Shown piece after piece: positions 11,505-49,984 of a DNA stretch of 64,000 bases (the first letter of the stretch is position 1; each line of letters begins with the position of its first letter). Where the stretch lies: positions 124,001-188,000 of the forward strand of contig JAPJBO010000295.1 in the NCBI GenBank assembly GCA_030068145.1, given 5' to 3'. The notes below the pieces were generated by a model. It saw only the letters and a list, made by a program, of their open reading frames with translations, was not told where the DNA came from and did no database searches. Position numbers and translations under genes: made by a program. This DNA comes from Diplonema papillatum (Eukaryota > Euglenozoa > Diplonemea > Diplonemida > Diplonemidae).

Positions 11505-12390
11505 GCGAAGTGGTATCCTCACTCTCAAGAGAAAGCCACATCCCTACCTTCTCCCAGGGCCGAACCACCGAAGCCCCCAAAAGACAACGACAACCTCAAC
11601 CCACGTGATAAACTTCTCAAACGAGAGCTAAAACTCATGTCCAGACTGAGAAAAATAGGATTGCAGCCGCGATCCGTAGCTGGAAATGGCAACTGCCTGT
11701 TCCTGAGCTTGTCTTACGAACAGGGAGACCAAATGGCCCTCCGCAACGAGCTAGCAGACTACTGGGAATCGCACAAGAGTGACTTGAAGATTCTGCCCGA
11801 CCTTGACCTCTCCCAGTACATGTCAAAACTCCGCGAGAACTACACATGGGGAGACTACCTTTCACACGCAGACAGTAGGTGAGTCAGGCACCCCCGTAAT
11901 GCTCGGATATATCGCTCAAGTGCATTACATCCCAATACGGGGTCCCTTTTCCGACAGACTGTTCGCCAAATTCCACAACCCACACGCGGACCCTCCACGC
12001 AACCCTTCCACCGCTTCCTCGACAAGTACAGAGGAACTGGCGTGCCCGCGTGATTTACCCCTACCACAGAAGCACAACCGGAACATCCGGCAGCTCAACC
12101 AAAGTCACCAGAGCAGCCTCCCGCTCGACTGGACTCAACACACCGTGCCGAAGTGTCGCTTCTGTGGTGCAACGACAACAAGGTCCGGAAACCCGTTCGC
12201 AAACTGGTTCGGTGTAGGCATGCACGAGAGAACTTGCGACGGAAACCCAAGAGGACTTCACAGTCCGAGCCCAGACAGGAATTGGCCCAGCACGTACCTG
12301 GCGCGCCTGACCCAGCGAGCTACGAGGGTCTCAACAAAATATCAAGTTCCCAATTACTTCCAACTTTCTCCTTTACCTTGCATCAAATAG
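11505..12390 (+). pseudogene. OTU cysteine-protease segment plus C2HC zinc finger, frame-disrupted
   Basis: Two frames together resemble one protein. The first (open from 11505 to 11882) reads RSVAGNGNCLFLSLSYEQ, the OTU catalytic loop (usually DGNCLF) with the nucleophile Cys codon at 11694-11696, then SKLRENYTWGDYLSHA, which matches the OTU YI..LR...TWGG segment. The second frame (to 12390) continues with GTPVMLGYIAQVHYIPI, placing a candidate catalytic His near 11917-11925. After a Pro/Ser-rich linker it holds CRFC...HERTC, a C-x2-C...H-x3-C finger. The shift falls between about 11865 and 11890, so the product is broken here unless spliced or frameshifted. No ATG precedes the OTU loop except 11637. 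It is probably an extra 5' ORF of the LINE, but a separate fragment is possible. Confidence 0.65.
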
Positions 12391-12644
12391 GTGCCACGGC
12401 AAGTTTTGGCAGCCGCTGCTTAACAACGGCAGTGCATGCTAATCCATGTGGTTCATGTACTTAAAAGAACTCAATGCTTAACAACCATCGATTTAAAAGC
12501 TACAGTTTCTGTACTTTATTGGCTGCTCACGCGGCCGGTAAAGTGCGCCCGGACAACATCCAGGACAAACACCCCCTTAACACAACAGCGGTACCCACCC
12601 GCTTAAAGAACACGAGCTGCCCGCTGCTCACCCAAACGGAAGCG

Positions 12645-12970
12645 ATGGACAGGATCAACGTCCTGATCCAGGAGGCGCGGGGGATGGCTGAGCACGCCGC
12701 CCTCGACGAGCTGGATGCCGTTTACGGCATCATCGACGTGGCAACGACGCTGCTCAGGCGTAGGATCGAAGCGCGGAGCGGCAAGCCGGCGCAGCAACCA
12801 CCAAGGCAGCAGCAACAGCAGCAACCGAAGCAGCAGCAGCAGCAGCAGCCGAGACAACAGCAGCAGCAGCAACCGAAGCAGCAACAGCAGCGACCGCAGC
12901 AGCAGCAGCAGCAGCAGCAGCCGAAACAGCAACAGCAGCAGCAGCAACCGAAGCAGCAACAGCAGCGACC

Positions 12971-13011
<41 letters not shown>

Positions 13012-14504
13012 GGCAACCGCAACAGCAACAGCAACAGCAACACCAACAGCAACAGCAGCAACACCAACAGCAGCCGCAGCAGCAGCAACCACAACGCCCC
13101 CGGCAAGGGAACGCGCCCACCTGGGCGGACGTGACCAGGCGGCCCCCGCCGCCCTGCGAGATCGACGCCGCCGACTGGGACGCGCCGGTCCTCCCAGAAC
13201 CCAACTTCGAGGCGGTCGGGGCTGGGCTCTGGGTCGCCCCCAGCGCCGCCGCAGCAGAGGAAGCGAAGGGACCCGCTGCGGATGCGGTGGACGTCGCGGA
13301 GCGCGACGGGAAGCGGGTGCGCCTTGGCGTGCTGTGCCGTGAGACCTTCAGCGACGCGCGACGGGGCCCCGTGCTGATGGTGGGCGGAAGGGTACAAGAG
13401 ATGTACCTGTGGACGGGCGGAGAACCGGTGCGCCAGCGGGGGCAGGTGACAGTGCAGAGAGTGCCCGTCGGCGCGGTGAAGCCGACCGCTGCCACGACGG
13501 TGCTGGCCTTCGTCGTGGCCCGCAAACACGCGTCGGAGGAGACGTGGTCTTGCGTGGAGAAGGACCCCCGCACGGCGCTGACACGCCTATGCCGAAGGGC
13601 CGTCAGGGCGGCCCTAAAGATGGACATACGTGTCCGCGACGACACCATGTGGGGCGTGTCGTCGCAGCAGGGGCGGCGCGAGCTGGTCGTGCGGGTGCCC
13701 CGCGCCCATGCCGACGAGATCCTGGCCAGCTCCGGTCGGGATGGCTGCTTCTGGCGGTCGACGGAGAAGGCGTGCCGGGACAGCATGCCGGTGGTCGCCC
13801 TGCAGAAGGGGGCCACGAGGGCGGTCGCCCTGGAAGTGGCGAAGCGGGCAGGCGGGGCGGCCGCCGGTCTCGTGCTCGCCGGCAAACGCCTCCTCGTACG
13901 CGCACGCAGCGACGCCGCGCTGGAAGAGGTGCGTGCGGCGGCCGGCGAACACGCCGCTGCCTCCCTCGAATCGAAGCCGCGTTTCCTGCTCATGGGCGCG
14001 GCGCCACGCGAGCACGAGGCGGACGTGGAGCACGTCCTGCGGCAGGCCGGCTGGCAGGCTGACGTCGTCACGTCGTTCCTGCGAGGTGGGGCGCGGGTCT
14101 GCGTCGTGACGTCGGCCACCGACCCCCCGTTCCGCGTGCTGCAGCGGGAGAAGGCACCCGACCTCCGGGTGAATCCCTTCGACGGAGGGGAGATGCCGAG
14201 GGAGCAGCGGGAAGCGGCGGATGCGGCTGCCGGCGCCGGAGGAAGACGAGCCGCAGCCAGCAGCCCCGCCGGCGGCCCCGCCAGCAGCCCCGCCGGCGGC
14301 CCCGCCAGCAGCCCCGCCAGCAGCCCCACCAGCGGCCCCACCAGCGGCCCCGCCAGCGGCCCCACCAGCGGCCCCACCAGCGGCCCCGCCAGCGGCCCCG
14401 CCAGCGGCCCCGCCAGCGGCCCCGCCAGCGGCCCGGAAGAAGAAGGCGAAGGGTCAGCTTCGCTTGGAATGCGAGTCAGCGCGTGCAAGACTTGCACGAG
14501 CTGA
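12645..14504 (+). CDS. LINE ORF1: Gln-rich gag-like protein
   Basis: The frame is open from 12474, and I take ATG 12645 (MDRINVLIQEARGM) as the likely start, giving about 619 residues. The order is a short helical head (to about 45); a long poly-Gln region with sporadic Pro/Lys/Arg/His (12794-13110); a TWADV motif and a folded, Arg-rich central part (13140-14210); then a Ser/Ala/Pro/Gly tandem-repeat tail (14255-14440) ending at TGA 14502. TWADV-like motifs and basic RNA-binding cores are typical of LINE ORF1 proteins; I cannot see a CCHC knuckle. Inferred role: binds the element RNA as a ribonucleoprotein. The stop is immediately followed by an open frame in the same register (see the UGA-CUA entry). 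Confidence 0.75.
12794..13110 (+). repeat. CAG/CAA (poly-Gln) repeat in LINE ORF1
   Basis: About 315 bases of CAG and CAA codons with interspersed CCG, AAG and CAC codons. CAG/CAA mixing limits slippage but still implies repeat expansion. The repeat is likely to vary between copies of the element. Confidence 0.9.
14255..14440 (+). repeat. GC-rich tandem repeat coding Ser-Pro-Ala-Gly
   Basis: Tandem units of 12 and 15 bases of the type AGCGGCCCCGCC. In the ORF1 frame they encode SSPAGGPA and SGPTSGPASGP repeats. The neighbouring frame encodes AAPP repeats and is also open, a side effect of the composition. Confidence 0.9.
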
Positions 14505-14507
14505 CTA
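14502..14507 (+). promoter_or_regulatory. Candidate stop-codon read-through site, UGA-CUA, between ORF1 and ORF2
   Basis: ORF1 ends at TGA 14502-14504, directly followed by CTA. The same reading frame then stays open without any stop from 14505 to 18764, although the first in-frame ATG after it lies far inside the AlkB-like domain (15168). UGA followed by CUA is the best-known leaky stop context in eukaryotes, used for read-through by alphaviruses and some cellular genes. Read-through would yield an ORF1-AlkB fusion, released from the endonuclease-RT by the 2A-like peptide. This is inference from frame and context; no RNA or protein data are at hand. Confidence 0.6.
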
Positions 14508-17500
14508 CCTCCACAGCCCGCACCCGGCGCCAGTGGCCCCGCCAGCCCATTACGGGTTGCCCTGCGCGCGAGGCCCTCGTTCGGGCTGCCGAGTCCTAGC
14601 ACCCCTGCTAGGCAGTTCGATCACGCAGAGACGGAAAAAGAGAATTCCTGCTCCTCTTCTTTTCCCCTCCCTCTCTCTCACGGCGCGTCTGGCCTCAATC
14701 GCCCGGGAGTGAAACCCCGAGGGCCCGGTTTTGCGCACAAACAATCCCCCTACAATAGCCAGTGTGCCCGGCCAACTTGCAACGAGGGCCCCCCCGCCAG
14801 GGTGGAGGGACCCATCCCGGGGCTAAGTTTCCAGGCGATCCCTCGGGATCTTCTGGATAGACTGAGCCGAGCACCCGAGCTCAACCCGGAAGCCCCATGG
14901 GGAAGGCTGGGGGGTGGACACAGCAGGGAAACCCAGCAGTGGGGGCACGCCTATCGACTAGGTGAACCCCCGATCAGACTGGAACGGGGTATCCCCGAGG
15001 GGCCCCTGAAAGAAGCGGCGGATCTCATACGTGACCGCCTTGGGTGGGAACCGGACCAGTTGCTGGCCAACTGGTACCGGAGGGGAGTGGGGATCAACCC
15101 CCACAAAGACCAGAGAGAACTGGGTCCGAGGGTAGCGACCATATCGCTCTTGAGCGACACGGTCATGGAATGGGAGAGGGGGAGCCGGAGAGTGAGAACC
15201 CCTCTGCCGGTCGGCACACTGTGCCACATGGAAGGCGAGGCCAGGAACCTGTGGACACACGGGATTCGTCCCGATGATGTCGCACGCGACCGGGTCTCGC
15301 TGACCTACAGGGCCGTGCGCGAGGCCGCCTCCCAAAGTTTGCAAGGCCGGGACACCCCGCAAGAAACTCCCATACCCCCCCCGCCCAGCCCTCAGGCATC
15401 CACTGCACCCCCCCAACATCAGTCCAGCCCCGCGCCACGGACACTTTTGCTTCATCACCAAAGAACTCTACAATCAATCAAAGAATCAGCAAGACAGCGG
15501 CTGATAACCGCGGGGGACGTCGAACAAAACCCTGGTCCCGGCCGCGCGGAGATGAGGTTCGCGACGTTAAACGTAACCAACCTACTACAGTATCTCCCAG
15601 CGGCCGACGCGGTGGAAGCGGATCTTCTCTGCTGCCAGGAGGTGACACTCCTTCCGTGCAAACGGGTGCAGGCGGAGGAATACCTGCGGAAATGGTGCTG
15701 CCACTGGGGTCTGCCACCACCCGGAAGACTCTGTAGGAACTCCGGTAGTCGCTCGACGATGAACGCCGCGAACGGAGGGCTCTCCACTCTAGTACTGAGA
15801 CCGATACCGGCGTACGATACGATGACGGCGCTCTCGCACGCAGCAATACGGTCCCCGGACCGAGTGAGCCATACGGTAGTAGCAACAGGGGCCGGCAACA
15901 CGTTCGTGCACGTGTTCAATGTCTACTGCCCTTCCGGAAACGGGAGGGCGGAGAGCGAGGAGCGTGAGGACATGCTGGAGAAGATCCTCTTCGCAGCGGC
16001 GGATAGCCTCGGTGACGTCCCCATAATGGTGATGGGTGACCTGAACACAGAAGAAGACCGGTCCCCTGTACTGCGGAAGGCACTAAGGAATGGATGGTCC
16101 GACGCAGCGGAACTGCACCATGCGCGTACCGGTGACACACCACCACCACCGACCTTTACCAGCGCCCGGACATCGGGCACGAGGATCGACCGCATACTCC
16201 TCAACCGAATAACGACGGGAGCTTTCCGCCAATGCGTCACCACCGCGGTGAACGTGCCGGGACACCGGCTCGTGACAATGACCCTGGACATTGCGGCGCT
16301 GCGCCAAATCGTGTGGCGATTTAAAGTACCGCGGGAAATCTCTACGGAGGGGGGACCCAAGTGGGGCCTCTCGGACACAGAAGCTTACAGGGAAGCCGTA
16401 CAGAGACTGGCCAACTCCGATTTCGCGGAACGGCTGGCAGCACAGCGAGCGGAAGAGGCCTGGCTCGAGTGGTCACGAGTCAGTGAGCAGTACTTGCAGG
16501 ATGCCTTCGGAATCCCTGCGGAAGAAAGGGGAAGAAGTACGGGACGGGGGATAAAGACGTCACCTAAAAGAGTCTGTATCACGGCAAGCACTGCGAGCGA
16601 CGGGTCGGGGGCGGCGAACAGCAGACAGCTACGGCTCCGGAAGGCCATCCACAGGATGGAACGCATCTGCAGCTACCTTGCGCAACGGCGCGGGCCGGAG
16701 GCAGTTCCGCATGAGGTATCCCGTTGCTGGCAGAACAGCAGGCGGCTGGCACAGGCGTGCATGAAAGATGGCCAAGGGACAGAAGGATTCCCGGATCATG
16801 AGGAGGCGAAGCAGCTTCTCACGGCATTGCGGGAAGAGACGAGCAGGCTCGGAAAGGAAGGATCGGCGGCCAGGTTTACGAAATACCGAGACAAGCTGAA
16901 CGAGAGGGCCGATGCGAGCAGACGATGTCTGACAACCATCTGCGCCGGACGCGCTGAGCCGTCGGGGGTGTTGCGAAAGGGGGCGGGAGTGACTGCAAAT
17001 GTTGACGAGATGGACGAGGTGCTGAACACTGCGTGGGACCCTATCCTGCGTAAGTACAAGGACGGGCCAGAGCCGGAGTACGAGCCGTTTCGGGATCGGT
17101 TCCGGGATCACATCGGCCCACATATGATGGAAGCCGGAACAATCACGGGGGAGGAGCTGCGAATTCTGCTGAGGAAGAAGCCGAAGAAAAGCGCGTCAGG
17201 GGTGGATGGCTGGCGTATGGCTGAACTGCGGGAGTTGCCGCTCCCCCTGCTGAATGCACTTGCAGACGTCATGAACCTGGTCGAAGCAACTGGAGACTGG
17301 CCGGCAAGCATGACAACTGCGCTGGTGTCGATGGTGCCGAAGGATGAGAGTCAAGACCCGCTGCACACAAGACCGATAACCGTCACATCCGCCGTGTACC
17401 GCTTATGGGCCTGCCGCAGGCTGGCGGACATAGTTCTGTGGCAAGAGGAATGGATCGAAGAAGGACAGAAAGGCTTTCGACCGGGTCACCGGATCGAGGA

Positions 17501-18764
17501 CGTCTTGATGGAAATTGGGCTCGAGATGGAGGACGCCTTGTTAGACGGGGAGCCGCTCTACGGTGTGGCGCTGGACTTCCGGAAATGCTTCGACATGGTC
17601 CCGCGAGAGATAGTACTGCGCTTAGCCGAGGACTTAGGATTGCACAATCGGGTTCTCAAGCCGCTGAGGGCTATCTACAGACTGCTCGCGAGACGCTTCA
17701 AGCTACCATTAGGGGTGGGCAGGGAGTTCAGTGTGACCAACGGTATCCTTCAAGGGTGCCCTGTATCCGTCATACTCATCAATGCCCTGCTGTCGGTAGT
17801 GATGAAAGCGGTCAAGAAAGAAGCGGAGGGTGTGAGTCCAAAGTCATACGCGGACGACGCCACACTGCTGTCCAGGCTGTCGGAGGCCGCCCTGCAAAAG
17901 GGAGTGGACGTAGTAGACGAGTTCTGCACACTCACCGGGATGGAGCTAAACCTCCAGAAGACGGTCGCGTTCTCGACGAGACGTAGGCATCAGTCGACTC
18001 TCAAACTCCGCAGCGTGGATGCGCTGCTGCGGTTTAGCAAATCCGTCAAGTGCCTCGGGGTCCTAGTCTCGACGGCGAAGAATAGGACGGAAAGGTCCGA
18101 CTCGGAGAGGGTGGAGAAGGCGGCTGCCCTGGCGGAAGGCCTCCGCCATGCGCCGTTCCGGTACGAAAAGCGGGTCCGGATTGTGCAGTCGAATGTGCTA
18201 CCGGCGGCGCTGTCAGGCTGCTCTTTCGCGCCGGTATCGAAGGTGGCGATGAAACGGCTGACGACGTCGGTGATGGGACTGATCTGGGGTGGATCCAACC
18301 CGAAGCGCGCGAGGGAGATGGTCCTAAACTTTCAGGAGAAGGGCCACCTGACGGATCCCGGTACATGCCTAGCATATAGGGTGACGACAGCGTTTTACGC
18401 GGCGTGCGAGAGGTTGCCACGACTGCTGCCTCTGATGGAGAGCATCCGGGGAAGATACGCCGAGGGGGACCCACCCCTGGGGCCAGTTGGACTGGCGATG
18501 AGGAGCATGGAGGAGTGTGGACACGTATGGGGACCCGGGCCCCTGTCTCGCACGCTGAGGAATGGTGCAACATATGACCCGTTAGCCTCGGCACCTTCGA
18601 AGAGGGGACATGAAGTTAGGGCGGACTTGAGGGCGAAGACGTGGTCCCGACTGGTGGCGAGGCGGCCGGGATTTGAGGGCATACAGAGAGCCGACCTGGA
18701 GCGGACGAACTCCTTCTGGAGGATGCGTGAATGTCCCGCGCACACCGCGAGGGTAAAAGAATAA
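14505..18764 (+). CDS. LINE ORF2 polyprotein: AlkB-like dioxygenase, 2A-like peptide, APE endonuclease, reverse transcriptase
   Basis: An open frame of about 1,420 codons continuing ORF1 in phase. AlkB-like domain (about 14820-15315): LLANWYRRGVGINPHKD with the HxD iron ligands (15102-15110), the distal His in NLWTHGI (15258-15260), and RVSLTYR with the two Arg of the AlkB family (15291-15311). The 2A-like DVEQNPGP follows at 15516-15539. APE endonuclease: MRFATLNVTN, CCQEV, NVYCPSG, VMGDLNTEEDR, TRIDRILL and a PGHR end. RT (about 17150-17900): SGVDGWR, ALDFRKCFDMV, NGILQGCPVS and SYADD (YADD codons 17847-17858), then a thumb/C-terminal part to 18764. I see no RNase H domain and no clear CCHC. 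The GTG at 14709 is unlikely to be the start; read-through from ORF1 explains the lack of an ATG. All visible catalytic residues are present. Confidence 0.88.
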   Translation, partial: LPPQPAPGASGPASPLRVALRARPSFGLPSPSTPARQFDHAETEKENSCSSSFPLPLSHGASGLNRPGVKPRGPGFAHKQSPYNSQCARPTCNEGPPARVEGPIPGLSFQAIPRDLLDRLSRAPELNPEAPWGRLGGGHSRETQQWGHAYRLGEPPIRLERGIPEGPLKEAADLIRDRLGWEPDQLLANWYRRGVGINPHKDQRELGPRVATISLLSDTVMEWERGSRRVRTPLPVGTLCHMEGEARNLWTHGIRPDDVARDRVSLTYRAVREAASQSLQGRDTPQETPIPPPPSPQASTAPPQHQSSPAPRTLLLHHQRTLQSIKESARQRLITAGDVEQNPGPGRAEMRFATLNVTNLLQYLPAADAVEADLLCCQEVTLLPCKRVQAEEYLRKWCCHWGLPPPGRLCRNSGSRSTMNAANGGLSTLVLRPIPAYDTMTALSHAAIRSPDRVSHTVVATGAGNTFVHVFNVYCPSGNGRAESEEREDMLEKILFAAADSLGDVPIMVMGDLNTEEDRSPVLRKALRNGWSDAAELHHARTGDTPPPPTFTSARTSGTRIDRILLNRITTGAFRQCVTTAVNVPGHRLVTMTLDIAALRQIVWRFKVPREISTEGGPKWGLSDTEAYREAVQRLANSDFAERLAAQRAEEAWLEWSRVSEQYLQDAFGIPAEERGRSTGRGIKTSPKRVCITASTASDGSGAANSRQLRLRKAIHRMERICSYLAQRRGPEAVPHEVSRCWQNSRRLAQACMKDGQGTEGFPDHEEAKQLLTALREETSRLGKEGSAARFTKYRDKLNERADASRRCLTTICAGRAEPSGVLRKGAGVTANVDEMDEVLNTAWDPILRKYKDGPEPEYEPFRDRFRDHIGPHMMEAGTITGEELRILLRKKPKKSASGVDGWRMAELRELPLPLLNALADVMNLVEATGDWPASMTTALVSMVPKDESQDPLHTRPITVTSAVYRLWACRRLADIVLWQEEWIEEGQKGFRPGHRIEDVLMEIGLEMEDALLDGEPLYGVALDFRKCFDMVPREIVLRLAEDLGLHNRVLKPLRAIYRLLARRFKLPLGVGREFSVTNGILQGCPVSVILINALLSVVMKAVKKEAEGVSPKSYADDATLLSRLSEAALQKGVDVVDEFCTLTGMELNLQKTVAFSTRRRHQSTLKLRSVDALLRFSKSVKCLGVLVSTAKNRTERSDSERVEKAAALAEGLRHAPFRYEKRVRIVQSNVLPAALSGCSFAPVSKVAMKRLTTSVMGLIWGGSNPKRAREMVLNFQEKGHLTDPGTCLAYRVTTAFYAACERLPRLLPLMESIRGRYAEGDPPLGPVGLAMRSMEECGHVWGPGPLSRTLRNGATYDPLASAPSKRGHEVRADLRAKTWSRLVARRPGFEGIQRADLERTNSFWRMRECPAHTARVKE
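15516..15539 (+). other. 2A-like ribosome-skipping peptide DVEQNPGP
   Basis: The codons spell GDVEQNPGP, an exact match to the D(V/I)ExNPGP consensus. The peptide bond between Gly (15534-15536) and Pro (15537-15539) would not be formed, leaving the AlkB-like part upstream and starting the endonuclease-RT with Pro. The upstream residues (SIKESARQRLITA) are the usual helical lead-in. Known in trypanosome and some animal LINEs. Confidence 0.88.
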
Positions 18765-40650: not shown

Positions 40651-41419
40651 TGGCTATAAGATAATTTGCCCTTTTTTTTTCCGTTGGGGTTTTAGTTGCA
40701 GAGTCCCCTTCTGGGATGGGAGTCCCACCTCCACCCTCAAAACGGGGGGGGGTTCGCGTAAAAGGTTCTTTTTGAGGTCGGACCAGCGCGACCCCACTCC
40801 CGGGGGGTCGCAGTCCGGTCACAGTATGCTGCAGCCTGTCGGTCGCGCATCGCACACACAGGGTTCATGGGGTACGGGGCTGAAGATTGCTTACACAGTT
40901 GGACTTGGAGCAAACAGGTTGCCGCCATCATTGCAACCGCAGAAGGTCTCAGAATCTAAAGCGTTGACAAGCACAGCAAGCAAATTAGGGGTTGCGGTGT
41001 GTGTCTGTGGCAACTCACGTTCTTGCTTTCTTTCCTCACATTACCAACACCCCCTTTCCAGAATTCATTTTTTTCCCCAACGACAGCAAGCGTCAGACTA
41101 GCTCTCTATTTCTAAAAATCAAGTTTCATCACGCCCCCGTGGCGGGGTCCATGCCACTCTGTGCGGATTTCGACCGGTGTGACCTGCGAAGTCGGCTTTG
41201 GAGATAGAAGATGACTGCTCTTCCTGAGGTGCCGCAAGCATTAGTCGCAAGACAGGTTGATTCGCTCTGGCAACACAGTGGCCGGAGAACCAATCGCTTC
41301 TTCTCCAGGACCGCCTCGAACAGGAATAAGTGAACAAAAACATTCTTTCTTGCTCTATTAAAGTGGCCCGCCAGGGTAAAAATCCAGGCTCCCTAAGAGA
41401 ACGCATTAAACAACGGTCA

Positions 41420-45223: not shown

Positions 45224-45305
45224 GGTGTTACCGATAAATAATTTCTGTTACCGATAAATAATTTTGGTGTTACCGATAAATAGTTTCTGTTATCGATAAA
45301 TAATT
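45224..45305 (+). repeat. Tandem GTTACCGATAAATAATTT units, continuation of the split left array
   Basis: Four units beginning with the 8-bp target duplication. This is the far side of the array broken by the insertion at 37748. Confidence 0.85.
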
Positions 45306-45669
45306 TTCGATCCGAAACAACTTGGTACCCGTGAAGGCTAGGTAGAAGCCCTCTTCAGGCACATTTTGCGCCCGGATAGCCGAAACTGGGATATAGGGGA
45401 CAAGATTTAGTTGCTGGAGAAGTGATTGCTCTGCCGCCCCCAAAGCCCAATCTGTTCAGCTGTGTTGATCACTTGGCTTTTCTGTGTCGAGAGAAGAGTT
45501 CGAGTAAGGTTTCGTATATCACGTTACTGCCATGACGGCACCATGGCACTACGATCGAACAGACAGTCAATCAGAGTTGTCTTGTCGGAACGGTTCATCG
45601 GAGTAAAGCATTTGGTAGAGGAGTCAAAACTCAACTTTATCATAAAGAATACATACACCAGCAGGTCAA

Positions 45670-46943: not shown

Positions 46944-47214
46944 TAGATCATCACACGCAGGCCTCGAAGGTTTTGCTTCCTGCTGGTTCGTTTCCACTGC
47001 GGTTAGCCACATACGATGTCGTGAGCTAAACATCCTCAAGAACGGACAAAAACACTCACCCATTTTCCCATTCTTCAGTTGTCAAAAGAAACGATCATTT
47101 TCTTCTTCTCAAGTGTTGCGCTCCTCCAGAAGGCTGTTCGCAGGGATGTCCCGTGTTCAAGATGGATACCGTCAGAACTCAAATTTCTCATCCATCACAA
47201 CAAGGAGGGGGTGG

Positions 47215-47405
47215 GTAACACGAAATTATTTATCGGTAACAAGAAATTATTTATCGGTAACAGAAATTGTTTATCGGTAACAGAAAATTATTTATCGGTA
47301 ACACGAAATTATTTATCGGTAACAAGGAATTATTTATCGGTAACAAAATAATTACTTATCGGTAACAAAAAATTACTTTATCGGTAACAGTTTCCGATAA
47401 ATAAT
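47215..47405 (-). repeat. Inverted GTTACCGATAAATAATTT array, right end of the outer element
   Basis: Eight units reading AATTATTTATCGGTAAC on the plus strand, followed by the CCCGATTTAAGTACGTCCG end box. Confidence 0.85.
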
Positions 47406-48609
47406 TTCCCGATTTAAGTACGTCCGATATGGGGTTTTCCGTTTTTTTTTTATTTTTATGAAAAACCGAAACCGGAAAACCCCGGTTTCTGAAACCGGGA
47501 AACCGGGATTCGAAAGTCCCCTGCCACAGTGTTAGTGTCGCCTGCATCCATCCCATGTTAGTGTCGCCTTCATCCATCTCATGTTAGTGTCGCCTTTTCG
47601 CATGGAAAGCACTGACACGGGAATACGGCTTCAGTATGGGCTTCGTATTCATGAACAGGTCTCACCTTGAAGCAATGGAAGTCTTAAACAAATGACACCA
47701 AGCATCATCGTCTCTTTGCTCTGCACATGCTGCAGAGGAGACTGACGGTGGAAAGCAACGGTGGTAGCCAGTGGTATCAAATGTCACTGTAGTAGACAGC
47801 ATGTCACGGGTAATTCCGAACGGGCTTCGTCACTGAAGGTGCAGACTTCCTCCGGATAGTGGAGCTCCTTGTAAGGGACGAAAGCGCGAAGTTGAAGAAG
47901 AGATGACGGTCAACAAAAACACAACGGTCGCCGACTACAGTGTCAACACCGCGGCTTTTATGGCAAAAAAGCGAAGAAGCCTTCCCAAAGCACCACTTCC
48001 GGGGTCTTTTTTTGTAGAGCCCCAACTTTTAGTTTCTGATGACGTTCTCCACGTGGACCCAATGTGCGATCCCCCACCGTGGATTTTGTGGAGTTCGCCC
48101 ATTGTGCGAGACCCGCAATGGCGGGATCCACAATGCCCCCCAGGACAAGCAAACTAGAACTTCTCACCGAGCCTACTGTCTTGCACGCTTCTTTGCAGAT
48201 TGATGTGCTGTTCGTCCAAAACAGAGCACTCTTTTGTTAGTCGTAATAGGTGAGATTATCCGTTCCTAAGTGTCAGGTGAGTGGCTCTCCACGAGGCAAC
48301 CTCTCAACCGAAGACAAATCAACCAGTATTTTACACTACATCCGCAGGCTCTGCAGCACCCGTATTTCAACGTGAACCATGCCAAGGCACGCCAACTGCA
48401 GAAAGTGTCCGCTCAGAACCCACCAGCCGCTTTTGCGCTCGCACCGTGATTATCCATCATTGCCCCGTCTAGCTTTTTTAATTTTTAAAAGCAGCATTTT
48501 TTTGATTGATGCTACTTACAAGAGATGATAACGCAAACGACTTCGCGGTGTTGACCACGCACGCCTGGCTTTGTGACACCAGCAGCGGCCAGCTATGCTC
48601 GACGTATGC

Positions 48610-49984
48610 GTGTCTTTGTACTTTTTTTACGTTCGGGTTGTAGAGCACAGTGACACGGGGCCCGCTTTTTTCTCTCATGTGCCAAGCAAGTTTGTCACTG
48701 CTGTGCAGGTTAGTTGCCCACAATTTCCCGGGTTTGCTTGACTCTAAGGGGTTGCCTGTACGCTGAGCCTGCTGGTCGGGGTGCTCGAGCACTGGAGAAC
48801 ATAAGACAAAACAACGACGAGGACACGCCGAGACACGTTGGCGTATTGCGAACTGATCTGAGCGGCGCTGCGATGCATTCCGCAAAAGATGGCGGAACAC
48901 TGCTACTGCTTGCCTGCCCTCGACGGCCCACGAACGACGCTCTGCTTTTTCAACGAAACCACGCATTTCTTCAACAACAAACCTACGCAATTCTCTTCCT
49001 GCGTTCGATTGTCTTCGACGTCTTTTGGATTTCTTTGGTCCCACTTACTCTTTCCATGCCAACCTTTGCTTCGGCTTTGTAATACCTCCACTACACTTTG
49101 TTCCGTCCCTCCCCTTTTCCATCGTGTTCTCGAACGATTTTCATGCCTCCATCCCCAGCCGATGCCGTCAAGGAACTGAGACAGTTGTCCTGCTCAGCCT
49201 CCAGAAAACGATGTTCGCTATCGCCACGATTTCTTTTTTGCTCATTCCTTTTTACTTCCACCGTTTAACCGTCATCACATTCCTACAAGTTTTCGCCGAC
49301 ATTTCACAATGAAGAGTTAAGTGTTGGTCGCTCCTTGGTAGTGGCCCCGGTCTTTGACACAGAGGCGCAACACCAAACGAGAAACAAACATGAAAATATA
49401 CAAGTTCTGACAGTCTGGTCCCAGCGAGCACCTGGCTACATGACACATCGGCGATGATACTCTTCTCAACTCTTTTTGCCGATTTGCATCGTTGCATGCC
49501 CTCCACCACTCTCCCCAGCCAGCCTCTGGAATAGACAGTGAGAAAATGAATTCCATCGACAGCTCAAACTGTCGAGAAGACAACGGACAGGACAACTCGC
49601 CACACTTCAGTGTGTCGTTGGTAACGTGACAAACACCGTAAAAACGCGGGGTTTTGGCTCGTATCGCAAACGATGCACCCTCTTCGCTTCGGCATGTTCC
49701 GCCATCTTTTGCGGAATGCATCGCAGCGCCGCTCAGATCAGTTCGCAATACGCCAACGTGTCTCGGCGTGTCCTCGTCGTTGTTTTGTCTTATGTTCTCC
49801 AGTGCTCGAGCACCCCGACCAGCAGGCTCAGCGTACAGGCAACCCCTTAGAGTCAAGCTAACCCGGGAAATTGTGGGCAACTAACCTGCACAGCAGTGAC
49901 AAACTTGCTTGGCACATGAGAGAAAAAAGCGGGCCCCGTGTCACTGTGCTCTACAACCCGAACGTAAAAAAAGTACAAAGACAC
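48610..49984. mobile_element. 1,375-bp element with near-perfect 290-bp inverted repeats
   Basis: 48610-48899 and 49695-49984 are reverse complements with about one visible mismatch. The ends are GTGTCTTTGTAC and GTACAAAGACAC. The 795-bp interior has no recognisable gene. Near-identity of the arms points to recent origin (a fold-back or MULE-like non-autonomous element). The 7-bp flanks CGTATGC and CGATTGC are only similar, so no clean target duplication is shown. Confidence 0.75.

Follow-up and report, generated by a model that had tools for sequence, protein, structure and literature searches.

We analysed a 64,000-nucleotide (nt) stretch of the genome of Diplonema papillatum, a marine flagellate (assembly GCA_030068145.1, contig JAPJBO010000295.1, positions 124,001 to 188,000 of the forward strand), called the window below. 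It carries a copy of a long interspersed nuclear element (LINE) in which an AlkB-type dioxygenase domain precedes the endonuclease (EN) and reverse transcriptase (RT). Enzymes of the AlkB family remove methyl groups from RNA or DNA. All features of the element lie on the plus strand. Blastn similarity to another genomic copy (L039, with a first open reading frame, ORF1, of 703 amino acids (aa) and a second, ORF2, of 2007 aa) begins at position 12484. ORF1 itself, with a Q-rich N-terminus and a conserved middle part, was placed at 12645..14504 from the list of open reading frames and by comparison with L039. Its stop, TGA CTA (14502..14507), is in frame with ORF2 and has a short readthrough-type context. 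A weakly constrained linker (14505..14813) leads to the AlkB domain at 14814..15317, followed by GDVEQNPGP (15513..15539), a predicted 2A ribosome-skipping motif as defined in PMC4981915. An APE-type endonuclease (PF03372, 15579..16208, ORF residues 359-568) and an RT core with YADD (PF00078, 17361..18062, ORF residues 953-1186) were recognized with Pfam, and the RT of the window matched LINE-1 ORF2p with an E value of 5e-21. The order of endonuclease and RT within one ORF, the upstream ORF1 and the dispersed copies identify the element as an APE-type LINE.

The window copy itself is damaged. The C-terminal portion of ORF2 (18063..18752, assigned by alignment to L039) is shortened: similarity to L039 stops at 18752, where some 590 codons of the L039 ORF2 are still to come, while the D. 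papillatum database proteins P0007 and P0008 run on. Together with P0009, these relatives show 91-99% identity over most of EN-RT. In addition, ORF1 lacks about 220 nt near its C-terminus compared to L039 (junction at about 14434/14435). This loss takes out most of the zinc-finger-like segment found at the C-terminus in intact copies; in L039, ORF1 terminates in this segment and a TGA, and AlkB comes next in the same frame. The window copy is thus defective and 3'-truncated, while the family is intact. Pseudogene debris was consequently rejected as an explanation, as the damage concerns this copy and not the family.

Identity of the AlkB domain

The domain is supported by Pfam, a PDB profile, an AlphaFold model, a fold search and substitution patterns. 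It matched PF13532 with 50.9 bits (gathering cutoff 31.2 bits, E 2.9e-13), and the profile search proposed in a first-pass annotation of this DNA thus gave an AlkB match above the Pfam cutoff. In AlkB proteins, the HxD...H residues are the iron ligands, while RxxxxxR and N-x-Y belong to the 2-oxoglutarate (2OG) site. Alignment placed the HxD motif of the window at HKD (15102..15110), the second iron-binding His in LWTHGI (15258..15260) and the 2OG-binding RxxxxxR motif at RVSLTYR (15291..15311). The first-pass annotation had read these three elements as the iron- and 2OG-binding residues of AlkB, and all of them, as well as N-x-Y, were invariant in an alignment with five database AlkB proteins. 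Seven catalytic residues are retained in all 38 unique copies of family A, to which the window copy belongs, and also in subfamilies C and D and in a second carrier of the domain (family 2), all described below.

Structure prediction, which had likewise been proposed, recovered an AlkB-type fold: the AlphaFold model (pLDDT 81.9) was matched by both Foldseek and VIA to AlkB homologues with their double-stranded beta-helix fold. Among the matches listed, the nearest homologue varied with the method, VIA pointing to ALKBH5, Foldseek to ALKBH6 and sequence to ALKBH8. Human ALKBH5, ALKBH6 and ALKBH8 and E. coli AlkB share the fold and the active-site residues with the LINE domain, but they are cellular enzymes and only about 18-29% identical to it in structural alignments. 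A chance motif was rejected in view of profile, fold and selection. We regard the AlkB domain and the LINE architecture as real with near certainty.

Copies, subfamilies and selection

The D. papillatum genome (271 Mb) was searched with ORF2 and with the AlkB domain. All 33 scored matches to ORF2 (of 4478 candidates) extend without a stop from AlkB to the end of the window copy, and for 21 of them the open frame measures 2004 or 2007 aa. With the AlkB query, 149 of the 150 scored copies (of 333 candidates) were stop-free, and one contained an internal TAG. By identity, 51 of the 150 (99-100%) make up family A and 20 (97-98%) subfamily B, while the remaining 79 (82-90%) comprise subfamilies C and D and one copy at 90%. 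The occurrence of the AlkB segment in other copies of the LINE, which the first-pass annotation had named as decisive for its reading, is thereby confirmed. Moreover, a 24-base AlkB pattern with at most one mismatch was found at 225 genomic places, family 2 included, compared to none for the reversed control; these places contradict an assembly fusion with a host gene. Seven of twelve long loci differ by only 0.07-0.27% across all of ORF2, indicating that family A multiplied recently. For this family, 38 unique places were read as DNA, after 12 further loci had been removed as duplicates before counting. The 2A motif GDVEQNPGP is identical in all 38; the corresponding predicted skipping motif is GDIEQNPGP in subfamily C and GDVEQNPGP in subfamily D.

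Copies of the LINE also occur close to each other. Upstream of the LINE, sequence of the element's 3' end was found in four of the twelve long loci (L039, L040, L046 and L049), and contigs C769, C460, C64 and C398 each contain a pair of equally oriented AlkB copies with a spacing of about 6-8 kb; both patterns represent head-to-tail clustering. An open frame of 2870 aa in C769 was considered as a natural fusion of ORF1 and ORF2 and rejected, as the upstream portion of this frame derives from the 3' part of a different LINE copy. The annotated D. papillatum protein P0003 (DIPPA_14024) ends in a piece of the LINE AlkB (96.8% over 125 aa), which reflects either an erroneous gene model or the exonisation of a LINE fragment.

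Selection was assessed by the ratio of nonsynonymous to synonymous substitution rates (dN/dS, Nei-Gojobori method), with Fisher tests on synonymous versus nonsynonymous sites. For the AlkB core, the window copy and subfamily D gave a dN/dS of 0.14 at a dS of 0.45 (p 1.4e-13), the window copy and subfamily C 0.22 at a dS of 0.17 (p 3.6e-5), and C and D 0.14. The 2A motif together with the first EN residues gave 0.22-0.24. The linkers were less constrained, with 0.46-0.77 before AlkB and 0.46-0.60 after it. These substitution patterns show that AlkB is under purifying selection between subfamilies, a check that the first-pass annotation had suggested and that turned out positive. That the domain has a selected function for the element is, in our view, very likely.

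A second carrier and related systems

When proteins of similar length were searched with the AlkB-2A region as query, four of 3452 candidates reached E <= 0.01, and all four are from D. papillatum. When the domain was compared by BLAST with 55 other proteins, it was present only in P0002, the window's own protein, and in P0003-P0006. In P0004-P0006, the AlkB domain lies within a different protein. P0004 matched OTU with an E value of 5e-4, narrowly under the Pfam cutoff, and in a genomic copy (C6) the stretch corresponding to P0004 matched RVT_1 with an E value of 2.6e-6 on a fragment, slightly under the cutoff. Outside AlkB, no significant alignment between P0004 and the LINE was found. A tyrosine recombinase suspected by eye in P0006 was supported by neither Pfam nor NCBIfam.

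The core of family 2 and the AlkB domain of the window are 78% identical at the protein level, and the nucleotide similarity between family 2 and the LINE (80-82%) begins and ends at about the domain edges. Among 150 scored genomic copies (of 318 candidates), 17 at 97-100% and 5 at 86% belong to family 2, at places such as C6:13173-13631 and with frames of up to 4088 aa; the other 128, at 78-82%, were taken for LINE copies. Between LINE and family-2 domains, dN/dS was 0.23-0.29 at a dS of 0.44-0.59 (Fisher p 3.1e-8 for A versus family 2), and 0.17-0.31 once the 86% type and subfamily B were added. This depth of divergence is close to that among the LINE subfamilies. Because the similarity is bounded by the domain edges and the divergence resembles that between subfamilies, we conclude that the AlkB cassette has passed between two unrelated retroelement classes. 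When the AlkB tree was rooted, the outgroup attached next to a single family-2 sequence; the support was 60% and the branches were long. A related AlkB domain in a second, unrelated jumping gene suggests that the domain is useful to such elements, and its presence in two unrelated retroelements of one genome points to a shared pressure. In viral and genome contig collections, searches for close AlkB relatives gave 3 and 25 pattern matches, respectively, none of which was confirmed. As a separate observation, 13 of the 22 family-2 copies are in minus orientation and no more than 16 kb away from base 1 of their contigs, some of which may be short. Such a distribution hints at a subtelomeric location of the element.

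Several known systems resemble parts of this arrangement. AlkB domains are carried by some plant RNA viruses, which are likewise parasitic RNA-replicating genomes, but viruses rather than LINEs. Ty3/Gypsy polyproteins contain a retroviral-type protease, RNase H and integrase; none of these was detected by Pfam (E <= 1) in ORF2 (2007 aa) and ORF1 (703 aa) of L039. The closest parallel is a retrotransposon with an acquired AlkB/2-ODD domain, namely the Ty3/Gypsy elements of orchids (Alvarado-Marchena et al. 2022, PMC9289625), for whose AlkB demethylase activity was demonstrated in vitro. The orchid elements are plant long terminal repeat (LTR) elements with AlkB in an additional ORF, whereas the D. 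papillatum domain lies between ORF1 and 2A of an APE-endonuclease LINE; here the host is a euglenozoan, and another class of retroelement has a related cassette. LINEs with an in-frame D(V/I)ExNPGP, as here, are described for L1Tc of Trypanosoma cruzi and for APE-type elements of multicellular organisms (PMC4981915, PMC12846837), but AlkB has no occurrence in PMC12846837, while the D. papillatum LINE has it upstream of 2A. TET/JBP proteins in fungal DNA transposons (PMC12730594) are also 2OG-Fe(II) dioxygenases, occur in several element lineages and are thought to act against methylation, but they represent a different dioxygenase family in a different type of element.

In the titles and abstract openings of the literature searched, outside which most subscription journals lie, no LINE with AlkB was found, and the sole transposon-borne AlkB was the orchid LTR case. 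This agrees with the first-pass annotation, which knew of no described LINE with this domain. As far as searched, AlkB and LINE modules are each known, and their combination and exchange are new; LINEs with their own nucleic-acid dioxygenase of the AlkB kind were previously unknown in that literature.

Expression, possible function and setting

The in-frame stop before AlkB reads TGACTACCT in 34 of the 38 unique A copies, and ORF1 is uninterrupted up to the UGA in six of the twelve long loci. The stop contexts are TGACTA in A, TGACTC in B and TGACTG in C and D, all in frame with AlkB, with linkers of 309 (A), 435 (B), 267 (C) and 297 nt (D). In fungi and animals, CU(A) directly after UGA is described as a short context for readthrough (PMC4207609). 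Subfamily B (L057-L059; C817, C612) resembles A only from about window position 14573 onwards (98.8%), and its ORF1 differs, being 35% identical to that of A over 177 aa and having its own cysteine-rich end. Since this subfamily is chimeric, with a different ORF1 and a near-identical AlkB-ORF2, ORF1 modules must have been exchanged too. The B copy in C817 has TGACTC, the 435-nt linker and AlkB in frame; in C612, the stop is followed by a Leu codon, and TGACTC is found within the stretch. That B has this UGA-CU junction as well, although its ORF1 is a different one, raised our estimate for readthrough. We think that AlkB is probably expressed by readthrough of the ORF1 stop. From frames and motifs retained in all four subfamilies we infer the order ORF1-readthrough-AlkB-2A-EN-RT.

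A sister LINE (P0022) provides a comparison. Its N-terminus is homologous to the ORF1 of L039 (56% over 188 aa), and its ORF1 continues through a pair of NPGP motifs to EN-RT without an intervening AlkB, in what is a database gene model that may contain an unseen intron. The 2A motifs stand in tandem at residues 303 and 387 and separate ORF1 from EN. This layout suggests that AlkB was inserted into what had originally been an ORF1-2A-EN-RT polyprotein.

Diplonemids use spliced-leader trans-splicing, and the main rival to readthrough is that ORF2 (AlkB-2A-EN-RT) is made alone, by trans-splicing past a polypyrimidine tract at about 14650-14685, between ORF1 and AlkB, combined with non-AUG initiation. 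PMC10161547 includes spliced-leader trans-splicing in its comparison of euglenozoan features, and family 2 has an in-frame ATG right before its related cassette. Against this, subfamilies A, B (C817), C and D contain no in-frame ATG before HxD (the linker of the window copy lacks any ATG, and subfamily linkers differ by in-frame indels), and in A-D the frame of ORF1 continues beyond UGA-CU into AlkB, even where ORF1 is a different one. We consider separate synthesis of ORF2 quite unlikely.

Under readthrough, ribosomes would end ORF1 at UGA-CU and a fraction would read on into AlkB; 2A would then break the chain ahead of EN-RT, giving ORF1, ORF1-AlkB-2A and EN-RT as products. By analogy to other LINEs, in which ORF1 is an RNA-binding protein, the ORF1-AlkB fusion could ride on the element RNA, where AlkB would use Fe(II), 2OG and O2 to strip methyl groups that are either host-placed marks or lesions blocking the RT. 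Oxidative demethylation of the element RNA by the ORF1-AlkB product is the most likely role we infer. RNA is somewhat favoured over DNA as the substrate, while host marks are slightly less probable than lesions as the target. As a whole, the best explanation, which we hold with moderate confidence, is a LINE family that carries an AlkB dioxygenase in its own coding capacity, read through from ORF1 and acting on the element RNA. A more far-reaching proposal, namely that AlkB is a mobile counter-defence cassette, shifted as a block between the LINE and a giant-ORF element of the OTU/RT type and, on LINE RNA, erasing host epitranscriptomic marks as a readthrough ORF1-AlkB fusion, is tentative and rather doubtful.

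Other functions can be envisaged. AlkB might act in repair, clearing alkylation lesions of the m1A/m3C type from RNA template, cDNA or target DNA and so unblocking target-primed reverse transcription; this is unlikely, given that ALKBH5, 6 and 8 are the better matches by structure or sequence and that the sister LINE manages without AlkB. Alternatively, the domain might hydroxylate or hypermodify RNA in the manner of ALKBH8, altering tRNA or element RNA without demethylation. This would be in line with ALKBH8 as the top sequence match among solved structures and with the NCBI name of P0004 (tRNA carboxymethyluridine methyltransferase), but Pfam detected no RRM or methyltransferase domain in the ORF, and a top match at 20-30% identity tells little of the substrate, which makes this reading very unlikely. 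Finally, a piece of cellular AlkB could have been caught by chance and spread by a recent burst. Family-A copies are indeed so similar that intactness alone proves little; however, purifying selection acts between subfamilies at a dS of about 0.45, and a second element class has the domain, with the low dN/dS across classes given above. Such a passenger is extremely improbable and already largely refuted.

Several observations weigh against demethylation by a readthrough product, or at least limit it. Four of the 38 unique A copies have another stop before AlkB, the ORF1-AlkB junctions outside A were read from two B, one C and one D copies, and RNA structure downstream of the UGA has no more than modest stability (z -1.3 and -2.2). 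The copy sample favours intact ones because most copies read as DNA were top-scoring matches. Subfamilies A and B differ by 4 nonsynonymous and 0 synonymous changes, and the variants within family A number 4 nonsynonymous and 3 synonymous, too few in either case to show selection. Fold and sequence do not reveal the substrate, and the domain scored far under the cutoff of TIGR00568, the equivalog of E. coli-type AlkB (14.3 versus 231.05 bits). The D. papillatum genome paper (PMC10161547) describes 5mC and base-J machinery, RNA interference genes and "a dozen" AlkB-type genes, but its main text contains neither m6A nor methyladenosine, and an m6A target in this organism is therefore an assumption.

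The same paper infers dynamic methylation control from the dozen AlkB-type genes and, in the passage on them, leaves their membership in transposons unspecified. Four annotated D. papillatum proteins (P0003-P0006) bear a retroelement-type AlkB, which is relevant for this count and for annotation. A recent high-copy family with a selected AlkB also makes it testable whether transposons counter RNA or DNA methylation directly.

With regard to the setting, the LINE sits within a kinesin gene on the same strand, and the open stretches on its two sides each match one half of the motor domain (profile positions 1-175 and 168-326). In the same gene, upstream of the LINE, there is a fragment of an OTU-like cysteine protease (window 11505-11882, PF02338 E 6e-5); the similarity to L039 starts only downstream of it, at 12484. 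An OTU domain recurs around the LINE, as P0049, a protein on a 3.5 Mb ENA contig with a 29% related RT, has OTU and RNase H in its precomputed Pfam list. Further downstream, the window contains tandem-repeat families in both orientations (38461-38797 and 40322-40660; 37559-37748, 45225-45308 and 47214-47425) and a 290-bp inverted repeat (48610-48899 and 49695-49984), the arms of which are 99.7% identical and separated by about 800 bp.
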